DNA of 34,779 nucleotides from Gammaproteobacteria bacterium (GCA_014382695.1 JACNJF010000107.1:76237-111015), one strand, 5' to 3'. Counted from the first letter of the stretch, positions 3,214 to 16,647 are shown. Notes: a model not told the origin generated them from the sequence alone. Numbers and translations are program-made.

Positions 3214-6200
3214 CTATCCAGCGCTAAACTGTTTGCGCTTAACCCGGAAATACAGCACCGGAATTATAACCAGAGTCAGGATAGTTGAAACAAATATTCC
3301 AAAAATCAGCGAGATGGCCAGGCCCTTGAATATGGGATCATCGACGATAAAAAACGCACCCAGCATGGCGGCCAGCCCGGTCAGCACGATGGGCTTCGCG
3401 CGCACCGCTGCAGACGTCATCACGGCCTGCTCAAACGGCATACCCTGAGCCACCAGCTCATTCATAAAATCAACCAGCAGTATCGAATTTCTGACGATAA
3501 TACCCGCCAGTGCAATCATTCCAATCATCGAGGTCGCGGTAAACTGAGCGTCCAGCAGAGCGTGCCCCGGTAACACACCGATAATGGTCAAAGGAATAGG
3601 CGCCATGATCACCAGCGGTACCATATAGGATTTGAACTGCGCCACTACCAGCAGGTAGATCAATAACAGCCCAATCGAATAGGCAATTCCCATATCGCGG
3701 AAGGTTTCATAGGTCACCTGCCATTCACCATCCCATTTAATACTGAACTGATAAGGGTTGTCCGGTGGGGTGATATAGTACTGTTGCAGTAGCGGCTGAC
3801 TCTGCTTCAGCTTTTGCTCAATCTCAAACATGCCATACAAAGGGCTATCCAGCGTTCCAGCCATATCCGCCGTCACAAATACAACGGGTAACAAATCTTT
3901 GTGATAAACCACTTTTTCCAGTGTACTTTGCTGAACCTTAACCAGCTCGGACAGAGCCACCAGCGTACCGGTATGCGTACGTAGCCTAATCGACAGCGCA
4001 TCGTACAGATTTTCCTTACTGGCAGCGGGTAGCTCAAGCCTGATCGGAGTGGCAAATTTGACATTATTACCATGAATAAAGCCAATATCCTCACCCTCCA
4101 ACGCCGTGGTCAGGGTCGACACCAGAGTCTCCTGACTGATACCGAAACTGGCCGCTTTCTGACGATCAATATTGACGATATAACGGGCTGCCGAAAACTC
4201 GATACTGTCGTCGATATCGACGATATCCGGGGTCGCTTCAAAGGTTTGGCGGATGCTGCGGGCAACCTGTATCTGCCCCTGATAATCGAGGCCATACACT
4301 TCGGCCACCAGCGAAGACATCACTGGCGGCCCAGGCGGCACTTCGGCCATCTTTACATTGGCGTTATACAGCTTTCCAATACGCTGCAATTCATTCCGCA
4401 CCGATAACACAATCTGATGGCTATTACGCTCACGTCTTGACTTATCGATCAGGTTAACCTGAATATCACCCAGATGCCCACCTTCACGCAGATAATACTG
4501 GCGTACCAGTCCATTAAAGTTAATCGGCGCTGCCGTGCCGACATAGGCCTGATAATCACTCACCTCCGGAACGGTCGACAGATAATTCCCGAGCTTATTG
4601 ATCACCATCGCGGTGTATTCCAGCGCCGTGCCTTCGGGCATATCGACAATCACCTGAAACTCCGATTTATTATCGAACGGCAACATCTTTAATACCACCC
4701 GGTTTAACGGCACCAGCGCGACTGAAAGCACGATCAGCAGCATGATCAGCAGGTTCAGCAGAATGAAATTACGCAGCTGGTGATCTCCACGTACAAAAGG
4801 ACTCATCACGCGTTGAAACAGACGAAACATCCGGCTTTGCTGAATATCAGCCGGTGCATGATGAGCCTCGCTTTGCTTCGAAGACAACACCTTGTAACTC
4901 AGCCACGGCGTCACGATAAAGGCAATCAGCAGCGAAATCACCATCCCCATGCTGGCATTGATCGGGATCGGACTCATATAGGGACCCATCAAGCCGCTCA
5001 CAAAAGCCATCGGCAGCAATGCCGCGATGACGGTAAAGGTCGCCAGGATGGTCGGCCCGCCAACTTCATCCACCGCCAGCGGGATCGATTCGCGCAGGGA
5101 TTTCGTCCCCAGCGACATATGGCGGTGGATGTTTTCAACCACCACGATCGCATCATCCACCAGGATGCCGATAGAAAAGATGAGGGCAAACAGCGATACC
5201 CGGTTGAGCGTAAAGCCCCAGGCCCAGGAAGCAAACAGCGTGATCAACAGGGTGATCGCTATCGCCAGCCCGACGATAAAGGCTTCCTTCAGACCAATCG
5301 CTATAGCGACCAGCAGGATAACTACTGCGGTTGCAAAGATCAGCTTCAGGATCAGCGTATTGGCCTTGATGTCTGCGGTTTCACCATAATTACGCGTAAT
5401 TGTGATATTCACACCTTCTGGAATAAAGGTACCCTGCAACTGCTCAAAACGCTGAATCACGCGCGCTGCAATATCAACCGCATTGGTGGAGGGCTTCTTC
5501 GCAACCGCGATAGTCACGGCCGGTTTGATCGACTGCAGATCCTTCAGCCCGACCTGTTGCGCCGCAGGTCCGGTGCCATACCAGACATACAGTTCAGGAT
5601 CAGCCGGACCGTCGATAACCGTGGCAATATCGTTCAGATACACTGGTTTATTCTGATGCAGCCCCACCACCAGCGACCCGACCTCTTCACTATTCGTCAT
5701 GAACACGCCAGCCTGCACCGGAATTTCCAGATTGTCCTTCACCAGCGAACCCGCCGCCTGTGAGCGGTTACTCACCATCAGCGCCATTCTGATGGCATCC
5801 AGATCCAGATTAAAACCGGCTATTTTCTGTGGATCCAGTTGCACCTTAACCACGCGTTGCGCACCACCGATGGTGTAGATATCGCGCGTACCGGGCACCC
5901 GTTTTAATTCTGCCTCGATCGCATGTGCGACCTTCAGCAGCTCATGTGCGCCCATATTGTCTTCATCAGACCACAAGGTCGCAGTGAGGATCGGCACATC
6001 ATCGATGCCTTTCGGCTTGATGATAGGTTGCCCCACTCCCAGATTTGGCGGCAACCAGTCCTGATTGGAAAAAATCTTGCTATACAGGCGCACAATCGCC
6101 GCAGTACTGTCTTCACCGACTTTAAACTGCACGGTCAGTATCGACAGTCCCTGACGCGAAATGGAATACACATGCTTGATGCCCGAAATCTCGGAAATCA

Positions 6201-6456
6201 CCTGTTCGGCGGGTGAACTCACCAGATGCTCAACTTCGGATACCGAAGCGCCGGGAAATGGAATAAAGATATTCGCAAAGGTGACGTTGATCTGCGGCTC
6301 TTCTTCCTTCGGCGTTACCAGTACCGCAAACACACCCAGTAAAATCCCTACCAGCGCCAGCAACGGGGTGATCTCGGAGACTAAAAACTTCTTCGCCAGT
6401 GCTCCGGAAAAGCCAAGCTTGTTTTCAGTGACGGGCTTTTCATCCTGATTAGACAT
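3214..6456 (-). CDS. RND-family efflux permease (AcrB/MexB-type superfamily)
   Basis: This 1080-aa inner-membrane pump has the RND layout: a first membrane helix near residues 29-48, a large periplasmic loop (about 50-365), a helix bundle (about 366-575), a second periplasmic loop and a C-terminal helix bundle. In TM4 the proton-relay pair D434-D435 is present in the motif GILVDDAIVVVENIHRHM. In the TM10 motif GIIVRNSILLVDF, Arg989 occupies the position of AcrB Lys940. The substrate is unknown; the loops look closer to broad HAE-1-like pumps than to heavy-metal CusA. The partner adaptor gene ends 10 bp upstream. No outer-membrane channel lies beside this pair, so it probably uses a TolC encoded elsewhere, possibly the one at 13356-14672. 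Confidence 0.95.
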   Translation of the reverse strand: MSNQDEKPVTENKLGFSGALAKKFLVSEITPLLALVGILLGVFAVLVTPKEEEPQINVTFANIFIPFPGASVSEVEHLVSSPAEQVISEISGIKHVYSISRQGLSILTVQFKVGEDSTAAIVRLYSKIFSNQDWLPPNLGVGQPIIKPKGIDDVPILTATLWSDEDNMGAHELLKVAHAIEAELKRVPGTRDIYTIGGAQRVVKVQLDPQKIAGFNLDLDAIRMALMVSNRSQAAGSLVKDNLEIPVQAGVFMTNSEEVGSLVVGLHQNKPVYLNDIATVIDGPADPELYVWYGTGPAAQQVGLKDLQSIKPAVTIAVAKKPSTNAVDIAARVIQRFEQLQGTFIPEGVNITITRNYGETADIKANTLILKLIFATAVVILLVAIAIGLKEAFIVGLAIAITLLITLFASWAWGFTLNRVSLFALIFSIGILVDDAIVVVENIHRHMSLGTKSLRESIPLAVDEVGGPTILATFTVIAALLPMAFVSGLMGPYMSPIPINASMGMVISLLIAFIVTPWLSYKVLSSKQSEAHHAPADIQQSRMFRLFQRVMSPFVRGDHQLRNFILLNLLIMLLIVLSVALVPLNRVVLKMLPFDNKSEFQVIVDMPEGTALEYTAMVINKLGNYLSTVPEVSDYQAYVGTAAPINFNGLVRQYYLREGGHLGDIQVNLIDKSRRERNSHQIVLSVRNELQRIGKLYNANVKMAEVPPGPPVMSSLVAEVYGLDYQGQIQVARSIRQTFEATPDIVDIDDSIEFSAARYIVNIDRQKAASFGISQETLVSTLTTALEGEDIGFIHGNNVKFATPIRLELPAASKENLYDALSIRLRTHTGTLVALSELVKVQQSTLEKVVYHKDLLPVVFVTADMAGTLDSPLYGMFEIEQKLKQSQPLLQQYYITPPDNPYQFSIKWDGEWQVTYETFRDMGIAYSIGLLLIYLLVVAQFKSYMVPLVIMAPIPLTIIGVLPGHALLDAQFTATSMIGMIALAGIIVRNSILLVDFMNELVAQGMPFEQAVMTSAAVRAKPIVLTGLAAMLGAFFIVDDPIFKGLAISLIFGIFVSTILTLVIIPVLYFRVKRKQFSAG

Positions 6457-6466
6457 TACGCCTCCC

Positions 6467-7498
6467 TTACCTGGTTCGAGTGCTTTTAATCGCTATCGCA
6501 GCGGCGACCGGATCACTCACAATCGAATCCCCCGGGATGATGCCGGACAGAATCACCACCTCATTCTCTGCCAGACGTCGTCCCAGTCGCACATGACGAA
6601 AATGCAGCGCTTCGCCTTCGCTAACATATACCCCGGTGACTTCACCGCGGAAAGCGACCGAGTTAAACGGAATCACCATTTTGTTTTCACGACTGACTTC
6701 AAGCGCCACCTTGACGAACATGCCCGGAATCAGGTCACTCTCCGAAGGCGGTAGCTGGATACGTAACTGAAAGCTATGACTAAGAGGATCGGCAAACGGA
6801 AAAAAAGTCATTGCTGTACTAACGATTTCACTATCCTCGGTCACGATAATGGCATAACGATGATTGCGTACCGCCTTAAAGATACTCTGTGGAACCTGGG
6901 TATTGATGCGTAAACGCTCCAGTGAAACACCCGACATCAGCGTCGTACCGACATTCACCGATTCGCCCGGCTCAATCATTCGGGCCGTCAGGATTCCACT
7001 AAAGGGAGCTCGCACAATGGTAAAGTCAAGTTGCTGCTGGACCTTACTGACTGCCGCCTGAGCGGACTCGTTGCGGGCTCTGGCTGTTTTCAGGGCCGCA
7101 TTGGCACGATCAAACTCGGCTTTCGATACCACGTTTTTCTGATAAACCTCCTGAATCCGGTTGAACTCACCCTGAGCCTCCTGCAACAGCGCTCGGGCTT
7201 CACGCTCGGCCGCCTGAGCCTGTTTTAACCCGGCCGTCTGCTGTTTGTTATCAATCACCACCACTACTTCGTCCTTACGCACAAAGTCATTCACATCGAA
7301 CAGGATTTTTTCTACCACACCGGAGGTCTGCGACGAGATTGTGGTTCTTAATTCAGCCTCTACCACACCTTCCAGCAGATAGGTGGTTGAAACCGGCTTG
7401 GAGCGAACCAGCTCTGATTCCAGTCCATTCAGAGCAAAGGCCGTCGCCGTGAAAAACAACCCGCTAATGGTACCAAGTATCCAGCTGACCTTTTTCAT
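6467..7498 (-). CDS. RND efflux periplasmic adaptor (membrane fusion protein)
   Basis: This adaptor links the RND pump encoded 10 bp downstream to an outer-membrane channel. I chose the ATG at 7498 (343 aa, MKKVSWILG...) because AGGAG at 7506-7510 is 7 nt upstream and the protein then begins with a signal peptide ending near TATAFA. The ATG at 7501 and an upstream in-frame ATG at 7534 are alternatives. After the signal peptide come a barrel-sandwich/lipoyl half (TTISSQTSGVVEKILFDV), an alpha-helical hairpin rich in Ala, Gln and Glu (about residues 88-155), the second lipoyl half (FTIVRAPFSGILTARMIEPG), a beta-barrel and a membrane-proximal domain. There is no lipobox cysteine, so it is probably soluble periplasmic. 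Confidence 0.93.
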   Translation of the reverse strand: MKKVSWILGTISGLFFTATAFALNGLESELVRSKPVSTTYLLEGVVEAELRTTISSQTSGVVEKILFDVNDFVRKDEVVVVIDNKQQTAGLKQAQAAEREARALLQEAQGEFNRIQEVYQKNVVSKAEFDRANAALKTARARNESAQAAVSKVQQQLDFTIVRAPFSGILTARMIEPGESVNVGTTLMSGVSLERLRINTQVPQSIFKAVRNHRYAIIVTEDSEIVSTAMTFFPFADPLSHSFQLRIQLPPSESDLIPGMFVKVALEVSRENKMVIPFNSVAFRGEVTGVYVSEGEALHFRHVRLGRRLAENEVVILSGIIPGDSIVSDPVAAAIAIKSTRTR

Positions 7499-7600
7499 CA
7501 TGAATCTCCTGAAATTAAGTTGAGCATCTTGCATTACACTCCCTGTTTGAAACCATTGAAACCAATAATGACCTTATTTATCAAGTTATTGCTGACAGGC

Positions 7601-8128: not shown

Positions 8129-8467
8129 ATGCCTTACTTAACTATTACCAGCAATCAACCTCTCGATACCGACTCAAACCAGCTCGAACTACTCAGTAAA
8201 ACCGTAGCCGATGGACTGAAAAAACCTGAATCGTATGTCATGGTCGCCATTCAATACAATCCGAATATGCTATTCGCAGGCAACAACAATCCGTTGGCCT
8301 ACTGTGAACTGAAGAGCCTGGGGATACAACCCTCACAGACAAAAGAGCTGTCCAGAAGCCTGTGCTCATGCATGAGCAAGCTGTATGGCATCAGCCCTGA
8401 ACGCATCTATATTGAGTTTTCTGCACCGTCCCGCTCCATGTGGGGCTGGAACAGTAATACGTTTTAA
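8129..8467 (+). CDS. MIF-like tautomerase-superfamily protein
   Basis: This 112-aa protein aligns by eye along its whole length with animal macrophage migration inhibitory factor. Pro2 (the catalytic N-terminal proline after Met removal) is present. Lys32 aligns with human Lys32 (mature numbering), and the C-terminal block GISPERIYIEF...WGWNSNTF matches human RISPDRVYINY...VGWNNSTF. The human CxxC redox motif is not conserved: only Cys59 remains of that pair. A phenylpyruvate or dopachrome tautomerase activity is plausible from the family, but the physiological substrate in bacteria is not known. The gene sits 7 bp after DUF4124 and 30 bp before proS. Confidence 0.92.
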   Translation: MPYLTITSNQPLDTDSNQLELLSKTVADGLKKPESYVMVAIQYNPNMLFAGNNNPLAYCELKSLGIQPSQTKELSRSLCSCMSKLYGISPERIYIEFSAPSRSMWGWNSNTF

Positions 8468-8497: not shown

Positions 8498-10204
8498 ATG
8501 AAAACCAGTCGTTTTCATCTGTCCACCTTGAAAGAAACTCCAGCAGACGCGGAAATCGTCAGCCATCAACTGATGCTGCGGGCAGGCCTGATTCGCAGAC
8601 TCGCGTCCGGTCTTTACACCTGGCTGCCACTCGGCCTACGTGTATTACGCCGAGTGGAAACTATCGTGCGCGAAGAAATGGATAATGCAGGTGCCCTCGA
8701 ACTACTGATGCCTGCCGTGCAACCAGCTGAACTATGGCAGGAGTCAGGACGCTGGGAACAGTACGGCCCGGAACTGCTACGCCTGAAGGATCGCCATCAG
8801 CGTGAATACTGCATAGGGCCCACCCATGAAGAAGTCATCACCGACCTGTTCCGGCGTGAAGTGAAAAGCTATAAACAGTTGCCAATTAACCTGTACCAGA
8901 TTCAGACTAAATTCCGTGATGAAATCCGCCCGCGCTTCGGCGTCATGCGCTCACGCGAATTCATTATGAAAGATGCCTATTCGTTTCACAGCGATCAGGC
9001 ATCCCTGCAACAGACTTACCAGCTGATGTTTGAAACCTACAGCCGTATTTTTGACCGCTTCGGTTTAAAATACCGCCCGGTCAGTGCAGACTCGGGCTCG
9101 ATCGGTGGCAATGCCTCGCATGAGTTTCATGTGCTGGCCGACTCCGGTGAGGATGGCATTGCGTTTTCCGCTCAGGGCGAATATGCCGCTAACGTAGAAC
9201 TGGCCGAGGCGAAGACCGATCAAACCCGTTCAGCACCCGGGCAAGCGCTGAATACTATGGATACCCCCGATCAGCACAGCATCGAACAGGTCTCCGAGTT
9301 TCTCTCCGTGGCACCTTCCCAGACTGTAAAAACTTTGATCGTGAAGGGTGAAAATGACACCCTGATCGCTCTCGTGCTACGCGGTGATCACGAACTGAAT
9401 GCGATCAAGGCCGCGAAAATTACCGGCATGGCTTCACCGTTTGAAATGGCCGATGCTGAAAAAATCAAACAGCAACTAAACTGTGATATCGGTTCACTCG
9501 GCCCTGTCGGTTTAACCATTCCACTGTTTGTTGATCGCAGCGCTGCAGTACTCAGCGATTTTGTATGTGGTGCAAACCAGAATGGCAAACACCTGACCGG
9601 GGTTAACTGGGGACGCGATCTGGCAGAGCCAGAAGTGGTTGATATCCGCAATGTGGTGGATGGAGACCCGAGTCCGGATGGCAGCGGAACCTTACAGATC
9701 GTGCGCGGTATCGAGGTCGGTCATATCTTTCAACTGGGTGAAAAATACTCGGCTGCACTCAACGCCAGCGTGCTGGATGAAAACGGAAAATCGATCATCG
9801 CCACCATGGGTTGCTATGGGATTGGTATTTCCCGCGTAGTCGCTGCAGCAATCGAACAGAATAACGATGACGCCGGTATTATCTGGCCCGCCTCACTGGC
9901 ACCTTTCCAGCTGGTCATCTGCCCGATTAACTATCATAAATCGGAACCGGTGCAGCAGGCCGCCAATGACTTTTATCTGCAGTGTCAGCAGCAGGGCATC
10001 GATGTGCTACTGGATGACAGACCGCTTCGACCGGGCGCGATGTTTTCCGATATGGAATTGATTGGCATTCCACATCGCATCGTGTTCAGTGAGCGCGGCC
10101 TGAAAGCTGGCCAATGTGAATACAAGGGACGCTGCGATGAACAGTCTCAGGATCTGGATCTTGCACAGCTGCCGGCTTTTATCCAGCAACAGCTGCAGGG
10201 CTAG
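8498..10204 (+). CDS. proS: Prolyl-tRNA synthetase (bacterial type with editing insertion)
   Basis: This 568-aa cytoplasmic class II synthetase charges tRNA-Pro. The N-terminal catalytic core shows [13 protein letters not shown], then motif 2 ([25 protein letters not shown], about residues 136-160). It is followed by a YbaK-like editing insertion (about 240-390) that clears mischarged Ala-tRNA-Pro, motif 3 ([13 protein letters not shown], about 439-451) and a C-terminal anticodon-binding domain. Length and domain order match the E. coli-type enzyme (572 aa). A transglycosylase gene starts 7 bp downstream. Confidence 0.97.
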
Positions 10205-10211
10205 CAGATTG

Positions 10212-10796
10212 ATGCTTTGGCACAGGGCCGCAAAACAGTTGTATGCTGTTTGCGCCCTGCTACTGATGCTCACATCGCTGCACTGCCACGCCGACTCTGC
10301 GGTTGATCCTGCGCTTAGAGCCCTGTTGCAGCAGGCGATCAACGAGCCCAATAATTTTCAGGATGAGTTTGATGCTCAGGTCTGGTTACAGGATATGAAT
10401 AATCGCCTGGCAGACTTTATGGACGATCCTATTGAACGACTTACTCTGTTAAGGACACTGCATTACGAGGCCGGCCGAGCTAATCTTGAGCCTGAACTGG
10501 TACTCGCCGTGATCGAAGTAGAGAGTCACTTTGACCGTTTTGCGATATCGGTAGCTGGAGCCAGAGGATTGATGCAGGTCATGCCATTCTGGCTGAATGA
10601 GATCAATCTTTCCGACCAGAATCTATTTAAAATCCGTACCAATCTACGCATGGGCTGCACTATCCTGCGTTATTATCTAGATCGGGAAAACGGTAATCTG
10701 GGGCCAGCACTGGCGCGCTATAATGGCAGCTACGGAAGAACGGTCTACCCGGAAAAAGTCATCCAGGCGCTGAACAGGAACTGGTTTAAACAATAA
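10212..10796 (+). CDS. Exported lytic transglycosylase, SLT family
   Basis: From the ATG at 10212 the product is 194 aa with a signal peptide (hydrophobic core AVCALLLMLTSL, cleavage near CHA-DS). The open frame continues upstream into proS, but the start at 10212 is the one that places the signal peptide at the N-terminus. The C-terminal half is an SLT domain: VIEVESHFDRFAIS with the catalytic Glu104-Ser105 pair, GARGLMQVMPFW, and the closing ALARYNGSYGR block. Such enzymes cleave peptidoglycan glycan strands in the periplasm. It is tail to tail with the GspE-like gene (8-bp gap). Confidence 0.9.
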   Translation: MLWHRAAKQLYAVCALLLMLTSLHCHADSAVDPALRALLQQAINEPNNFQDEFDAQVWLQDMNNRLADFMDDPIERLTLLRTLHYEAGRANLEPELVLAVIEVESHFDRFAISVAGARGLMQVMPFWLNEINLSDQNLFKIRTNLRMGCTILRYYLDRENGNLGPALARYNGSYGRTVYPEKVIQALNRNWFKQ

Positions 10797-10804
10797 ATCC
10801 CGGG

Positions 10805-12565
10805 CTAACCTTCGTAGCGCGGCGGAGCCACTTTAAGTACTTCCTGGATCGTGGTCAGGCCTTTCGCGACCTTTTGCGCACCAGCCAGATTGAGCGGGCG
10901 CATGCCGTTTTTTATCGCCAGTTTGCGGAATTTGGCAAGATCAAAATTGCTGGTGATATGCTGTTTCAAGTTTTCTGACAATGGCATCATTTCATAGATA
11001 CCCTTGCGCCCCAGAAAACCGGTTTGACGACATTCGAGACAACCCTCTGCCAGATATATTTTTTCGGGCGGCTTCGTGCTCCAGGGTCGGATCAGCGAGT
11101 CCCATTGATCGGCATCGACATCGACCGGCTTTTTACAGTGCGGGCATAGAGTGCGTATCAGCCGTTGCGCGACAACACCGAGCAGGGTCGCGCTGATCAG
11201 ATAGGGCGGAATACCGATTTCGGTAAGACGAGCTACTGCGGAAGGCGCATCGTTGGTATGCAAAGTAGAGAGCACCAGATGCCCGGTCAGCGCGGCCTGT
11301 ACCGCCATTTCAGCGGTTTCCCGATCTCGAATCTCACCGATCATGATAATATCCGGATCCTGGCGCAACAGCGTCTTGACCCCGCGTGCAAAATCCACCC
11401 CGATGTTATGTTGCACCTGCATCTGATTAAACAGCGGTTCTACCTGCTCGATCGGGTCTTCTATCGTACACACATTCACTTCCGGTACCGCAAGGTGTTT
11501 CAGACTGGTGTACAGGGTAGTGGTTTTACCGGAGCCGGTAGGACCGGTTACCAGAATGATTCCGTAAGGTTGCTGAATCATATGATTCCAGCTGTCCGAC
11601 TCCTTCTTTTCAAAACCGAGATCAGCAAAATTTCTGGCCAGCACTTCAGGATCAAAAATCCTCATGACCAGCTTTTCGCCGAAAGCCGTGGGCATACTGG
11701 ATAAGCGTAACTCAATCTCCTGACCATCCGGAGTGACCGTCTTGATGCGACCATCCTGCGGCTTTCTTTTTTCTGCCACATCCAGCCGCCCCATTATCTT
11801 GATTCGACTGGTCACGGCCGCGGTGATATTGGCAGGAATCTCATATACCTGATGCATCACACCATCGATACGAAAGCGTACATTGCCCTGATTCCGCCGC
11901 GGCTCAATATGGATATCACTGGCACGCTGAGTGAACGCATATTGCAACAGCCAGTCAACGATGCTGACAATATGCTGATCATCGGCCTCCACCATGCCGG
12001 TTTTACCGAGCTCGATCAGCTGCTCAATATTCTGAATATTACCGACCTGCTCGGCCTGATTCAGGCCAGCGTGATCCATCGCCCTGCTGACACTATAAAA
12101 CTCCAGTGCATAGGCTCTCAACTGACTCGGATTGGCCAGCACCAGACTAATCGGCTGTTTGACAATACGCCTTATCTCTTCCAGCCACTCAGTGTTGTAG
12201 GGATCGGTAACCGCAATCACAACTTCGCTAGCAGTTACCTTAACCGGCAAGATATTAAAACGAGAAGCATAGGCGTAGGAAATTAGGCTGGTACAGGACG
12301 CCACATCCATCTTTAACGGATCAAAATAATAACGCGCCAAACCGGATTCTCTGGCCAGCCAGTCGGTCAGTACATCGAGGGTTAATTTTTGCGCGGGATT
12401 GGTCTGGTTGACCCATTGCCGGTTGGCGATACTTTCCAGAGCATGCTGGTTTTTACGATCCTGTGCCGATGACAGCGATGAAACCATCCTGGCCTTTTCC
12501 GCCTCGACCATGCCCTGCTCTACCAGTTGTTGCATAATACTGTCGAGAGAGCAGGATTTTTGCAT
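10805..12565 (-). CDS. GspE/PilB-family secretion ATPase (orphan)
   Basis: This 586-aa protein has a degenerate MshEN/T2SSE N-terminal part (about residues 1-160), a linker, and the hexameric secretion ATPase core. Visible motifs are Walker A GPTGSGKTT (341-349), the Asp box at CTIEDPIE, Walker B DIIMIGEIRD (405-414), the His box (LSTLHTND) and a four-Cys zinc site, C474/C477 and C509/C512. All residues expected for ATPase activity are present. No GspF, pilin, secretin or PilT gene is nearby. Instead it is the last gene of a unit with an HlyD-like adaptor (5-bp gap) and a TolC-like channel. The AAGGA before its ATG overlaps the end of the adaptor gene. Its role in that context is unknown. Confidence 0.93.
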   Translation of the reverse strand: MQKSCSLDSIMQQLVEQGMVEAEKARMVSSLSSAQDRKNQHALESIANRQWVNQTNPAQKLTLDVLTDWLARESGLARYYFDPLKMDVASCTSLISYAYASRFNILPVKVTASEVVIAVTDPYNTEWLEEIRRIVKQPISLVLANPSQLRAYALEFYSVSRAMDHAGLNQAEQVGNIQNIEQLIELGKTGMVEADDQHIVSIVDWLLQYAFTQRASDIHIEPRRNQGNVRFRIDGVMHQVYEIPANITAAVTSRIKIMGRLDVAEKRKPQDGRIKTVTPDGQEIELRLSSMPTAFGEKLVMRIFDPEVLARNFADLGFEKKESDSWNHMIQQPYGIILVTGPTGSGKTTTLYTSLKHLAVPEVNVCTIEDPIEQVEPLFNQMQVQHNIGVDFARGVKTLLRQDPDIIMIGEIRDRETAEMAVQAALTGHLVLSTLHTNDAPSAVARLTEIGIPPYLISATLLGVVAQRLIRTLCPHCKKPVDVDADQWDSLIRPWSTKPPEKIYLAEGCLECRQTGFLGRKGIYEMMPLSENLKQHITSNFDLAKFRKLAIKNGMRPLNLAGAQKVAKGLTTIQEVLKVAPPRYEG

Positions 12566-12570
12566 CGGCT

Positions 12571-13356
12571 TTAATCCTTGATTTCTACAGTAACGGGCAT
12601 TTCAGTGGGTAGCGCTAACTCGGTTTCAAAGCTAACAAACACTTCATAGGCCGGCAGTCCACTGGCCTGCTTGATTCGTTTGTAGCCCAGGAAGCTAACG
12701 ACTCCCTTGAACTTGTGCTCTCGATACTTGATCAGCGCAGGCTTATTGAGCAGACTGGGGCTCCATTGATCGGAGTTAAGCAGAGCAATAACTTTCATCT
12801 GGTGACTTTTTACCACACTCAGCAGTGGACTCAGATCAACCGATGGATCCACATACCTTGCGACATTCGTATTCAATTGCTCTACCCGCCCGTCGACCGG
12901 AGAACGGATCTGGGTATTCTCCAGATCGTATTGTGCCAGCAGAACATCAGCCTTAGCTGCCTGCAAATTACCCTCGGCCACTGCCATTCGGTATTGCGTA
13001 TTTTTCAACTCTATCTGAGACAGAGAGTCACGATCGTACAGTTCCTGAGCACGCGTTAATTCCAGTTGCGCGGTTTCATACACCGGTGCCAGAGATTTTT
13101 CTATCGCCTGAGCACGCTCAAGACGAGCCTTATGAGGGGTAGCGTCCAGTTCCAGTAATAGATCACCCTGTTTTACGCGCTGACCCGGCAAAACCGATAC
13201 CGTCTTAATCACGCCACTTGAGCGTGCATTCAGCTCAACAACCCCATCAAAGGCAGTAAAGCCACTAAGAGTCAATCCATGACTGGAGGGGAAATACAGC
13301 AGGCTAAGCAGGGGTATTAACAGTTTGACTCTCATTACTTTTTTAACCTTGACCAT
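12571..13356 (-). CDS. Short HlyD/RND-type periplasmic adaptor protein
   Basis: This 261-aa membrane-fusion-protein homologue has an N-terminal export signal (LLIPLLSLLYFPSSHG), a first lipoyl half (ARSSGVIKTVSVLPGQRVKQGDLLLELD, about 45-73), an alpha hairpin (about 75-145) with YDRDSLSQIEL, a second lipoyl half (IRSPVDGRVEQLNTNVARYV) and a short beta-barrel. The membrane-proximal domain seen in most RND adaptors is missing. Start: the ATG at 13356 shares one base with the TolC stop (TAATG), favouring coupled translation. A second ATG, seven codons on, is possible. No inner-membrane pump is encoded beside it. Confidence 0.9.
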   Translation of the reverse strand: MVKVKKVMRVKLLIPLLSLLYFPSSHGLTLSGFTAFDGVVELNARSSGVIKTVSVLPGQRVKQGDLLLELDATPHKARLERAQAIEKSLAPVYETAQLELTRAQELYDRDSLSQIELKNTQYRMAVAEGNLQAAKADVLLAQYDLENTQIRSPVDGRVEQLNTNVARYVDPSVDLSPLLSVVKSHQMKVIALLNSDQWSPSLLNKPALIKYREHKFKGVVSFLGYKRIKQASGLPAYEVFVSFETELALPTEMPVTVEIKD

Positions 13357-14672
13357 TAATTAGAAGTTTTTTGAGTATCCAGATAGGCAGCACCGACCAG
13401 AGCTTCAAGCTTACGCCAGGACATTTCCAGATCAAACCGGGCCTGAAACGTTTTCATGCGGCTTTCAGAAAATTGCACCATAGAATCACCCAGGTCGGTC
13501 TTGAACTCCAGCTCGTATTCAGCACGACTACGGTCCAGCGTCATGTCCCGAAATTCCTGATTAACCAGATTCCCGCTCAGGCGCAACTCATTTTGCCGAA
13601 TCGATTGCCATAGCTTTAAAACAGTCAGACGGAGCTCCGATCGAACCCGATTAAAATCCGCTAACTCGCGGCGATGCTTTGCGCTGGCGATACTCCGCGC
13701 GGATTTTTCAGCCGAACCTGCATACAGCGGCATATCGAAAAAAATACTGGCGCGCCAGTCATCGCGCGTTGATCCTTCGCGTGCATATTCTGAAACCTCA
13801 AGCTCGGCATCCAGTGTTGGCCCCGTCAGATGACGAGCCATCTCAATCTGTTGCTGCGCTATTTCTACTTTTTTTTGTTGAATCCTGACTAGCAGACTGT
13901 GCTTGAAGGCCTGTTCCGCCAGGCTATTTATGTCATCACCAATCTTTCTGCCCGTCTCCAGCTCAGGCAGAGAGAGCTCACTCGGCGGAGAATCGGGAAA
14001 CCCCAGTTCTTCGGCCAGAAGGAAGCGAGTATAGCGCTGCAAATTTTCACTATTGGCCCGGTTCTGGCGGATAACTTCATACGCCGCCTGACTTTCCATC
14101 ACTTCCAGCTCTGAACTCAAGCCCAGCTCCCTGTTTTCGCGCGCACGGTCATAGCGGATATAACCTATAGCCAGATCTTCGTTATGCCGAAGATACTCAT
14201 TATCGGCATGCAACACATCTAAAAACTTTTGTGTGATGGAAAGGTGACGCTGCTGCAGCAAATATTCTTTTTCCAGTCGCTTCAACTCCACATTCATGAG
14301 TGCAAGCTGATCTCGGGCCGAAGTTTTACCGAAATCATACAACGGTTTACGCACAAACAGACTCACCACACTGTCGTTGTCTTCTGCCGGATCGCCTGCT
14401 GCAGAAACTCCAACCTTACTCAAGCGACCCGACAGGTTAACCCTGAAGTCATTATTCGACTGCGACTGATCAATCTCAGCCAGGGCCTGTTGCAAATCTT
14501 CATTAGCCGATTGAACCTGAAAATGTCCGGCATCATCGACAAACTGTAACGCTATTTCAAGCGTTAGAGGTTGCGGTAATGACATCTGTTCAGCAGCCAG
14601 CATAAAGGCGGGATAAAACAAAAACAGGATTGCCAGCATCTGCCGGCAAGCTGACTTAAACACAGCACTCAT
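13356..14672 (-). CDS. TolC-family outer-membrane channel protein
   Basis: This 438-aa protein has a signal peptide (MLAILFLFYPAFMLA, cleavage near AAEQ) and two long-helix OEP repeats typical of TolC homologues. Landmarks are QPLTLEIALQFV near the mature N-terminus, NLSGRLSKVGVS, VRKPLYDFGKTSARD (about residues 108-122), the second-repeat equivalent IFFDMPLYAGSAEKSARS, and a helical end with LDRSRAEYELEFKTDLGD. Trimers would form an outer-membrane barrel with a periplasmic tunnel. It overlaps the adaptor gene by 1 bp and follows a thioredoxin gene by 18 bp, so it is part of a five-gene unit. Type I secretion or tripartite efflux would normally need an inner-membrane pump, which is not present here. 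Confidence 0.92.
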   Translation of the reverse strand: MSAVFKSACRQMLAILFLFYPAFMLAAEQMSLPQPLTLEIALQFVDDAGHFQVQSANEDLQQALAEIDQSQSNNDFRVNLSGRLSKVGVSAAGDPAEDNDSVVSLFVRKPLYDFGKTSARDQLALMNVELKRLEKEYLLQQRHLSITQKFLDVLHADNEYLRHNEDLAIGYIRYDRARENRELGLSSELEVMESQAAYEVIRQNRANSENLQRYTRFLLAEELGFPDSPPSELSLPELETGRKIGDDINSLAEQAFKHSLLVRIQQKKVEIAQQQIEMARHLTGPTLDAELEVSEYAREGSTRDDWRASIFFDMPLYAGSAEKSARSIASAKHRRELADFNRVRSELRLTVLKLWQSIRQNELRLSGNLVNQEFRDMTLDRSRAEYELEFKTDLGDSMVQFSESRMKTFQARFDLEMSWRKLEALVGAAYLDTQKTSN

Positions 14673-14690
14673 AAAGGCACAGAAAACTTT

Positions 14691-15254
14691 CTAATTAACG
14701 GATTTTTGTTGTTTTTTGAATCGCTTATACTTGCCGAAGCTGACTTCACGACCTGATTCATCTTTCGTCTTATAAACCCCATCCAGATAATATTCCGCTA
14801 GCCACATAAACTCTTCAGCCCCTGAAGCAGCCCCGGTAAAACGAACCACCGGGGTTCCTTCCAGATCATAGAAAGCCATTACCGGTGTTGCACGCACCCT
14901 GTTTTCACTAGCAAAGGCTTTCTGTGTAGTATGTTTACCTTCGAAATCAACAACCTCAAGGTCGCCCTCAATATCGATTGCGATTGAATGGAAGTTCTGT
15001 TTGAAAAAATCCTGGATTTCGGACTGGTTTAATACCGTTTTTTTCATCCGATGGCAGAATGGACATTCATCCATTTCAAAAAAGACAAACAGGCCTTTCT
15101 TGCCTTCACTTTTTGCAATTTCCAGCTCTTCCTTGAGGTCGCCCAGACTTTGCTCAAAAAAATACTGGTAAGGGTCTCTGGGAGTCGAAGCCGACAGGCT
15201 ATTAATAAAAAAAACCAGCGCCAACAAAAAAAATATTCGAAATTTTGTATTCAT
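14691..15254 (-). CDS. Exported thioredoxin-fold protein with CPFC motif
   Basis: This 187-aa protein has a signal peptide (FFLLALVFFINSLSA). The thioredoxin-like domain carries ECPFCHRM with Cys64 and Cys67, and a cis-proline segment ATPV (Pro124). It resembles periplasmic thioredoxin_2/SoxW-like proteins more than classical DsbA. The C-terminus is unusually basic (KYKRFKKQQKS). The ATG at 15254 has a very strong Shine-Dalgarno (AGGAGGAG). As the second gene of the tlpA-trx-tolC-hlyD-gspE unit, it is likely to reduce or isomerise disulfides in the periplasm; the partner is unknown. Confidence 0.9.
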   Translation of the reverse strand: MNTKFRIFFLLALVFFINSLSASTPRDPYQYFFEQSLGDLKEELEIAKSEGKKGLFVFFEMDECPFCHRMKKTVLNQSEIQDFFKQNFHSIAIDIEGDLEVVDFEGKHTTQKAFASENRVRATPVMAFYDLEGTPVVRFTGAASGAEEFMWLAEYYLDGVYKTKDESGREVSFGKYKRFKKQQKSVN

Positions 15255-15283
15255 GAAGCTCCTCCTACCAGAGTGAAACCGGT

Positions 15284-15302
15284 AAATTTCCTTTGGAAAT
15301 TT
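15284..15302. repeat. Perfect 8-bp stem-loop between the two thioredoxin genes
   Basis: AAATTTCC and GGAAATTT are separated by three bases, giving a perfect hairpin in the 72-bp gap between the TlpA-like and CPFC thioredoxin genes. No T-run follows on the minus strand, so it is not a standard terminator. It might stabilise or punctuate the message upstream of the strong ribosome binding site of the second gene. Confidence 0.5.
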
Positions 15303-15326
15303 TCATACCTGACATAAAAAGCCAGA

Positions 15327-15797
15327 TTATTTTTGCTTGTTAGCTTCCCATTTCTGAATGAAGTTTTCAATCATTTTAGCGCTTACACCGCCGACCTGAC
15401 GGGCTTCAACAGTCCCTTCTGGAGAAACCAGAAAAGTGGTGGGTAATCCAGGTACCTGTCCAAACTCGGTATTACTCACCGGACCGACACGGGAGTTGGG
15501 ATAAGTCACGAAATAATCACTTAAAAACTCTTCAATTTGTTTTTCACTGATCACTTCGGTATTTAATCCGATGACGACACCATCGCTCTCGAAATGCCTG
15601 TCATGGAAGGCCTGTAGCTCCGGCATTTCCTCCCGACAGGGTGGGCACCAGGTCGCCCAGTAATTTACCACAACCCACTTCCCCAGGTAATCCGACAGCT
15701 TAGTTTCCTTTCCATCCAGCTCTATAATGTCCATTTCGACTGCAGCCATGGAAATGGAACTGAATGCGAGCATTATTGATACAAGTATAGTTTTCAT
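15327..15797 (-). CDS. TlpA/ResA-like periplasmic thioredoxin
   Basis: This 156-aa protein has a signal peptide (MKTILVSIMLAFSSISMAA) and a TlpA-type redox domain: YWATWCPPCREEMPEL with Cys51 and Cys54, and GLPTTFLVSPEG with the cis-proline Pro119. Family members reduce disulfides in the periplasm, for example in cytochrome c maturation or copper-site assembly; no ccm or cox genes are near. It is the first gene of the five-gene minus-strand unit. A candidate promoter with an inverted repeat lies 44-71 bp upstream of its ATG. Confidence 0.92.
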   Translation of the reverse strand: MKTILVSIMLAFSSISMAAVEMDIIELDGKETKLSDYLGKWVVVNYWATWCPPCREEMPELQAFHDRHFESDGVVIGLNTEVISEKQIEEFLSDYFVTYPNSRVGPVSNTEFGQVPGLPTTFLVSPEGTVEARQVGGVSAKMIENFIQKWEANKQK

Positions 15798-15913: not shown

Positions 15914-15943
15914 CATAAAAAAGGCCCGCAATTGCGAGCCTTT
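15914..15943 (-). terminator. Rho-independent terminator of the LysM lipoprotein gene
   Basis: On the minus strand, AAAGGCTCGCAA pairs with TTGCGGGCCTTT (one G-T wobble) and the stem runs into TTTTTT. It starts about 20 bp past the stop codon at 15964. This is a textbook intrinsic terminator and separates the lipoprotein gene from the tlpA unit. The plus-strand reading ends in TTTAATAA and would be weak. Confidence 0.85.
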
Positions 15944-15963: not shown

Positions 15964-16647
15964 TTACCGAGCCAGAAAATCTTTGTCGGTCGCTTCAACT
16001 TCACCAATTGACCATGCACCACGAGTTTTTGCATGCTGAATCGCCGCATCAACTTCGGATGAAGAAGCAGATGGAATACTGAACACCTGTCCGGCATAGA
16101 TCAGATCGGCATCTTTAATTTGATTCGAGTTCGCTTTATAAATTAATGGCCACTGATAAGGATTACCATAGGTTGAGTCCTTAGCAGAGATATTCCACAG
16201 GTTATCGCCAGAAACCACTGTGTATTCAGATCCGGCCATTGCATTAGACATATTCGAGCTATCCATCGAACTTTCAACGGCACCATGCTGCTCGTTAAAA
16301 CGCTTTGTTTCCGAATGATACTGTGCAATGGCATCTTCAGCCTGTTCACTGGCAGCATTAGCCAGTTCAATAGCCTGATCGTTGTCACCTGCTGCAGCTG
16401 CCTTTTCGGCATCTTCAATCATTTTGGAGGTGTCACGCCATGCATAACCCAGCTTTTCAGCTCTGGCCAGTTTAATTTTGGCAGAATAAATAGCATTTTT
16501 AGCCGCAGGACTTGGACCAGCTGGTGCCTGTACTGCAGGCTCAACTGCTGGAGCGGGCTCCTCTTGAGTATCGCTCGCACAACCTGCAACCAGACCTGTT
16601 GTTAAGAGAGCAACTGCAGCTAATTTTAGGAATTCTGTTTTATTCAT
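15964..16647 (-). CDS. LysM-domain lipoprotein with DUF4398-like helical region
   Basis: This 227-aa protein has a lipoprotein signal peptide with lipobox LVAGC (Cys23). After an Ala/Pro/Glu-rich linker comes a helical, Ala-rich DUF4398-like region (about residues 48-118: KNAIYSAKIKLARAEKLG). A LysM peptidoglycan-binding domain follows at about 142-191 (YTVVSGDNLWNISAKDSTYGN to AGQVFSIP). The residue after Cys23 is Ala, not Asp, so Lol sorting would send it to the outer membrane. It probably tethers the outer membrane to peptidoglycan. It appears monocistronic, with its own -10 box and terminator. GGAG lies 9 nt before the ATG. Confidence 0.93.
   Translation of the reverse strand: MNKTEFLKLAAVALLTTGLVAGCASDTQEEPAPAVEPAVQAPAGPSPAAKNAIYSAKIKLARAEKLGYAWRDTSKMIEDAEKAAAAGDNDQAIELANAASEQAEDAIAQYHSETKRFNEQHGAVESSMDSSNMSNAMAGSEYTVVSGDNLWNISAKDSTYGNPYQWPLIYKANSNQIKDADLIYAGQVFSIPSASSSEVDAAIQHAKTRGAWSIGEVEATDKDFLAR

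Follow-up and report, generated by a model that had tools for sequence, protein, structure and literature searches.

Tripartite pumps and type I secretion systems combine a TolC-type outer-membrane factor, an adaptor with hairpin, lipoyl and beta-barrel domains, and an inner-membrane transporter. Variations on this layout are known, among them TriABC-OpmH of Pseudomonas aeruginosa, a resistance-nodulation-division (RND) pump with two adaptors, and EmrA, the adaptor of a major facilitator superfamily (MFS) pump, which has no membrane-proximal domain (PMC4158417). Among pilus motors, TfpB of Acinetobacter baylyi is a PilB homologue that serves as a second extension motor and is encoded by a gene unlinked to pilC (Ellison et al. 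2021; PMC8213720). The locus described here lies in a 34,779-nucleotide stretch of DNA (the window) from an uncultured gammaproteobacterium whose genome (G000) is 96% complete, and consists of five minus-strand open reading frames, trx1, trx2, tolC, hlyD and an ATPase gene, with intergenic gaps of 72, 18, -1 and 5 bp (Table 1). The initial annotation had recorded this order and spacing correctly, as well as the boundaries of the unit, namely a terminator upstream (a hairpin with a T tail at 15943-15920) and a tail-to-tail end with a lytic transglycosylase gene, which is convergent with the ATPase gene and leaves 8 bp between its own end at 10796 and the ATPase stop at 10805. It took the five genes for a single trans-envelope system, in which the ATPase might energise a TolC-HlyD conduit. 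Our analysis indicates that, with the gene identities given below, they very probably represent two unrelated modules at one old chromosomal locus: a thioredoxin-TolC-HlyD operon, and the gene of a type IV pilus motor.

The genes trx1-trx2-tolC-hlyD are a conserved operon. Named genomes, scanned for trx2, yielded 80 loci, including those of Sedimenticola, Thioalkalivibrio, Ectothiorhodospira, Thiodiazotropha, Thiocapsa and tubeworm symbionts, and gene order was counted in the 54 callable loci outside the window's own family. At these loci tolC comes after trx2 in 51 cases, tolC and hlyD both directly follow trx2 in 48, and trx1 directly precedes it in 33, with median gaps of 3 and -3 nt within the trx2-tolC-hlyD trio. 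Within the family (f1, 41 genomes), tolC was found in 25 genomes, accompanied by trx2 and hlyD in the same order. The association of two exported thioredoxins with a TolC-HlyD pair, noticed in the initial annotation, is thus real and conserved.

All four products have N-termini that resemble signal peptides, read by eye rather than with a predictor program. The product of trx1 scores 87 bits against the ResA-like model of NCBIfam, below its cut-off, and that of tolC scores 75 bits against TIGR01844, below the cut-off of 225; the hlyD product reaches 104.3 bits against TIGR01730, above the cut-off of 94.9. The ECPFCH motif of trx2 is invariant in alignments, and the solved folds nearest to its structural model (predicted local-distance difference test, pLDDT, 93.9) are 4fyb of H. 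pylori, DsbH (2ju5) and DsbD-gamma. No cut-off of a named curated family was reached by trx2, and a search of NCBIfam for Sox thioredoxins (SoxW/SoxS) returned sub-threshold matches only. Like SoxW/SoxS, DsbH, DsbD-gamma and TlpA/ResA, the trx1 and trx2 products are exported thioredoxin folds in Sox-bearing genomes, but unlike thioredoxins of the SoxW/SoxS type, trx2 is coupled to TolC-HlyD and not to SoxV/CcdA. At three Thiocapsa loci (L174, L181 and L183), trx2 stands beside wrbA without tolC-hlyD, showing that it can persist alone. The hlyD gene of genome G021 scores low (L124) and is either damaged or poorly sequenced.

The operon belongs to Sox-type sulfur-oxidising Gammaproteobacteria. 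In a class sample of 229 genomes, with one or two per family and with tfpB called at the threshold used, soxB scores above cut-off in 93 genomes, and is found in 49 of the 53 genomes with trx2, where 21.5 would be expected (Fisher p 2.5e-19, kinship ignored). As a control, soxB occurs in 28 of the 58 genomes with tfpB versus 23.6 expected, which is not significant. The window's own genome carries two copies of soxB. In a Sulfurovum transcriptome, HlyD/TolC genes, which may or may not be homologous to the operon of the window, are reported to be induced on elemental sulfur (PMC10045233). In tubeworm symbionts and Thiodiazotropha, exported low-complexity proteins rich in Tyr, Pro, Asn and Met, similar in composition to sulfur-globule proteins, are encoded two genes after hlyD on the opposite strand (Table 1).

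The fifth gene is identified by its sequence as tfpB, and its product as an extension motor for type IV pili. The protein scores 889 bits against the NCBIfam model for TfpB (NF053534, cut-off 850) and remains below cut-off with the models for PilB (524 bits, cut-off 676) and GspE (534 bits, cut-off 630). A tree that set it against PilB- and GspE-type ATPases, as the initial annotation had suggested, grouped it with TfpB: a branch supported at 100/100 sets all 33 TfpB rows apart from the other ATPases in the 41-member tree, and the eight paralogues from the same genome (PilB, GspE-like, PilT and PilU) all fall outside the TfpB clade, the finer branching order being unsafe because of long branches. 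A GspF/PilC gene is missing from the five-gene unit, as had been pointed out; no PilC/GspF match was found within 1.5 kb of tfpB at 30 TfpB loci of the class, and a missing platform gene is thus the rule in this family. Elsewhere, the genome of the window encodes PilB (873 bits) and PilC beside pilin-like (PilA-like) and PilD-like genes, in addition to PilT/PilU and PilQ (521 bits), so that TfpB has a type IVa pilus machine to serve, and, together with PilB, it would work in trans on a PilC platform whose gene lies elsewhere. Like TfpB of A. baylyi, the window ATPase is not pilC-linked and co-exists with a canonical PilB; unlike the described TfpB, it is encoded directly behind a redox-channel operon, and its role in pilus extension is a predicted one. 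The identification is mainly a correction, and orphan pilus motors may pass for parts of neighbouring systems. In genome G021, tfpB is split into two overlapping frames (L054:7278-9022), representing a pseudogene or old sequencing errors. Contig C113 of the window's genome carries a tandem of three PilT/PilU-type genes (L064:932-4405), and stretches of N beside GspE-type genes (L058:7893-8654, L060:6800-9463) leave two secretion clusters partly readable.

Occurrence and position both indicate that tfpB and the operon are independent of each other. In the class sample, tfpB is found in 58 genomes and trx2 in 53, and the 15 genomes that hold both, in 5 of which the two adjoin, are no more than chance would give (13.4 expected). 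Within the family, the trio lies beside tfpB in 13 genomes and has moved as a block in 12, where it is flanked by a universal stress protein gene on one side and, on the other, by a DUF255 gene or one for a Met-rich repeat protein; in those 12 genomes tfpB is kept at the old place, with or without trx1, and it persists without the trio in many genomes. Outside the family, tfpB follows the operon at only 3 of 59 loci (L146, L154 and L170). Acylphosphatase-tfpB-proS or lysM-acylphosphatase-tfpB occurs without the operon at L202, L204, L209, L210, L219 and L221, operon-acylphosphatase-proS occurs without tfpB at L145, L161 and L169, and L227 has both. The adjacency of operon and tfpB thus arises because both sit at an inherited locus (lysM, operon, acylphosphatase, tfpB, proS), and since the acylphosphatase gene was found at none of the 19 loci of the window's family, hlyD and tfpB have been left nearly abutting there. 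Acylphosphatase, the commonest gene after hlyD, was considered as a missing partner of the operon and rejected, as it is a housekeeping enzyme and absent from those family loci.

The adaptor encoded by hlyD is 250-283 amino acids long in almost all relatives. Its model (pLDDT 93.6) comprises a signal-peptide-like helix, a lipoyl domain, a hairpin and a beta-barrel, at which point the protein ends, and there is no apparent membrane anchor. It aligns only to residues 53-298 of AcrA (of 397), 43-300 of MacA and 23-261 of MexA, with Z of 18 for AcrA and MacA; because the alignment stops at AcrA 298 and MacA 300, the adaptor is predicted to have no membrane-proximal domain, the part that docks on RND and ATP-binding cassette (ABC) pumps. 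Among the families listed by the fold search, no special adaptor was closer than AcrA, MacA and MexA. The same three-domain layout without a membrane-proximal domain is found in EmrA, and that domain is therefore not universal among adaptors. Unlike EmrA, however, the window adaptor has no apparent N-terminal anchor, a short hairpin and no MFS gene seen alongside, and it is more similar to RND/MacA adaptors than to EmrA.

The operon supplies the TolC-type factor and the three-domain adaptor of a tripartite pump or type I secretion system but, unlike those systems, no inner-membrane transporter is encoded with the pair. Within six genes of tolC at 56 non-family loci, there were no ABC-like genes by a motif test and no RND genes, MFS genes being covered only through the count of polytopic neighbours; these neighbours were YihY-type proteins, a PntB-like protein, DsbD and one other, as named from reading of the sequences. 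The initial claim that the TolC-HlyD pair has no pump holds insofar as none adjoins it, and this is conserved, but it had left unmentioned an RND permease and adaptor in the window itself, ~5 kb from hlyD across proS. This RND pair is linked to the trio in relatives too, a finding that had been named at the outset as one that would speak against the five-gene system with its ATPase. Orthologues of the permease, 62-69% identical, are found near the relocated trio in other family members, with the RND adaptor kept beside the orthologue in every relative read, and 21 of the 25 trio genomes carry the orthologue, versus 7 of the 16 other family genomes (p 0.014). The RND pair is a candidate pump partner of the operon. 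Permease and adaptor are inserted between LysR and DUF4124 in G000, G002, G003, G008 and G010, and are cleanly absent there in G001, G004, G006 and G007.

A role for the operon can be sketched from its parts. The trx1 and trx2 thioredoxins would act in the periplasm on disulfide, persulfide or sulfane groups, the TolC channel and its soluble adaptor would give sulfur products or adducts an exit through the outer membrane, and a pump in the inner membrane might join in trans, the RND pair at 3214-7534 being one possibility, or none might be needed. That the operon couples periplasmic thiol/sulfane redox work to outer-membrane exit is the likeliest role we can offer, though we hold it short of probable. 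The fuller proposal, that it is a thioredoxin-fed, pump-independent or pump-borrowing exit for reduced sulfur, persulfides or sulfur-globule-associated proteins, and as such an undescribed envelope module, is more tentative still. Sulfur-compound traffic between the periplasm and the outside is poorly understood in sulfur oxidisers, and the operon is a concrete and testable candidate for it, one that would broaden the known TolC assemblies to include adaptors lacking a pump of their own.

Beside the relocated trio there is a conserved block of genes, whose products are a protein like MotA/TolQ/ExbB (36.9 bits), a membrane protein resembling TolR and a small membrane protein that matches no family (L072:6097-8639; L068, L069, L071, L095, L096). 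The block is divergent from a gene for an exported MNPxxY-repeat protein of ~200 amino acids, and occurs both with and without the trio. The MotA/ExbB-like and TolR-like proteins with the Met-rich protein were considered as an energy source for the trio and rejected as not essential, because they occur without it (G020 and G026; L095 and L096) and because one of the genes, the TolR-like one, could not be found in the genome of the window.

Two explanations of the five-gene unit had been offered initially, and both appear very improbable. The more improbable of the two holds that the ATPase energises TolC-HlyD through some further inner-membrane protein, for which it might be cited that the genes directly adjoin and are probably co-transcribed in 13 genomes; yet the ATPase is TfpB by score and by tree, its gene co-occurs with trx2 no more often than by chance, most operons have no adjoining tfpB, and tfpB often persists where the trio is missing or has left its locus as a block. 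Conserved adjacency of the ATPase and the TolC-HlyD pair, which had been expected, was not found. The other explanation, that an efflux pair and a degenerate pilus ATPase adjoin by chance, agrees with our analysis in that the ATPase functions independently of the pair, but degeneracy is excluded by the full-length frame, the intact Walker A motif and 75-85% conservation within the family; moreover, the gene order was inherited at a shared locus and is no one-off accident, and the association of thioredoxins with TolC-HlyD is conserved.

For the operon itself, the alternatives concern which of its parts belong together. Its TolC and HlyD could simply provide the RND pump in the window with its missing outer-membrane factor and a second adaptor, making a four-part pump like TriABC-OpmH to which the thioredoxins are accessory, and such an arrangement is conceivable but rather unlikely. 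The RND pair has no adjoining outer-membrane gene of its own, its orthologue lies within ~10 kb of the trio at two chromosomal places (G000, G003, G008 and G010; G014-G017, G021 and G033; with contig-edge pieces in G025 and G027) and is enriched in trio genomes as given above, and the best profile match of the operon's adaptor among solved chains is an RND adaptor, 6vej, which we take to be the two-adaptor TriABC entry. Unlike TriABC-OpmH, however, the operon has two thioredoxins, an adaptor without the membrane-proximal domain and no RND gene recognised near it at the 56 non-family loci, and four family genomes (G001, G004, G018 and G059) carry the trio without the RND orthologue. Somewhat less likely again is a division of labour in which the thioredoxins work for Sox or for the maturation of cytochrome c by reducing the cysteines in SoxY, SoxAX or c-type cytochromes, while tolC-hlyD shares their transcript but has an unrelated task in efflux. 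The TlpA/ResA-like character of trx1, the resemblance of trx2 to DsbH and DsbD-gamma folds, the position of dsbD after hlyD in Thioalkalivibrio-type loci (L157 and L171) and the Thiocapsa loci that keep trx2 alone are all in keeping with it, but trx2, tolC and hlyD are tightly packed and move as a block, which argues for one joint function.

Several points weigh against our own reading of two modules, with a sulfur-linked operon and a possible RND partner. The hlyD and tfpB genes adjoin in 13 family genomes, are only 5 bp apart in the window and may be co-transcribed here, and the pair adjoins in three other lineages of the class sample (G082/G222, G177 and G253), above chance placement, although the shared locus explains this. 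The soxB statistics take no account of kinship, although the sample has only one or two genomes per family and tfpB served as a control. The RND linkage is partial, as there are seven genomes with the orthologue and no trio in addition to the four in the opposite state. Finally, we found no paper or experiment addressing the trx1-trx2-tolC-hlyD operon, which is apparently undescribed.

Table 1. Features of the window, with loci of the Tyr/Pro/Asn/Met-rich proteins in other genomes
Feature	Position	Strand	Description	Match or structure
trx1	15327-15797	-	exported TlpA/ResA-like thioredoxin, WCPPC active site	Pfam AhpC-TSA, 67.6 bits
trx2	14691-15254	-	exported thioredoxin, ECPFCH motif, first gene of trio	Thioredoxin_2, 70.9 bits
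tolC	13356-14672	-	TolC/OEP-type outer-membrane channel	PF02321, 93.5 bits, two stretches
hlyD	12571-13356	-	short RND-type adaptor, ~255 amino acids	Pfam Biotin_lipoyl_2 and HlyD_3
tfpB	10805-12565	-	putative type IV pilus extension ATPase TfpB, independent neighbour	Pfam MshEN and T2SSE
Terminator-like hairpin	15920-15943	-	between lysM and trx1	10-pair stem, 6 G-C, T tail
SLT lytic transglycosylase	10116-10796	+	conserved backbone gene, true start probably further in	SLT, 63 bits
LysM lipoprotein (lysM)	15964-16647	-	conserved backbone gene upstream of unit	LysM, 27.8 bits
RND permease	3214-6456	-	candidate inner-membrane partner in trans	ACR_tran, 508.8 bits
Adaptor of RND permease	6467-7534	-		HlyD_D23, 51 bits
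Tyr/Pro/Asn/Met-rich proteins	L140:13117-14166, L153:13063-14133, L173:13257-14048, L185:14947-15738			

The surroundings of the unit are shared with relatives. The Olavius algarvensis Gamma 3 endosymbiont (L124) is a member of the window's family, and a backbone of AI2E-LysR-DUF4124-proS-SLT-tfpB-lysM-arsC-wrbA-hda-DUF2066-purM is kept throughout the family and, in part, outside it, the SLT gene occupying the same place in relatives. A homologue of macrophage migration inhibitory factor (8129-8467; PF01187, 60.6 bits) is encoded directly upstream of proS, and is retained by some members of the family and by certain other lineages. The N-terminal part of the LysM lipoprotein, whose position is conserved across the family, matches the model for SoxAX-binding protein with 68.8 bits, below the cut-off of 95.

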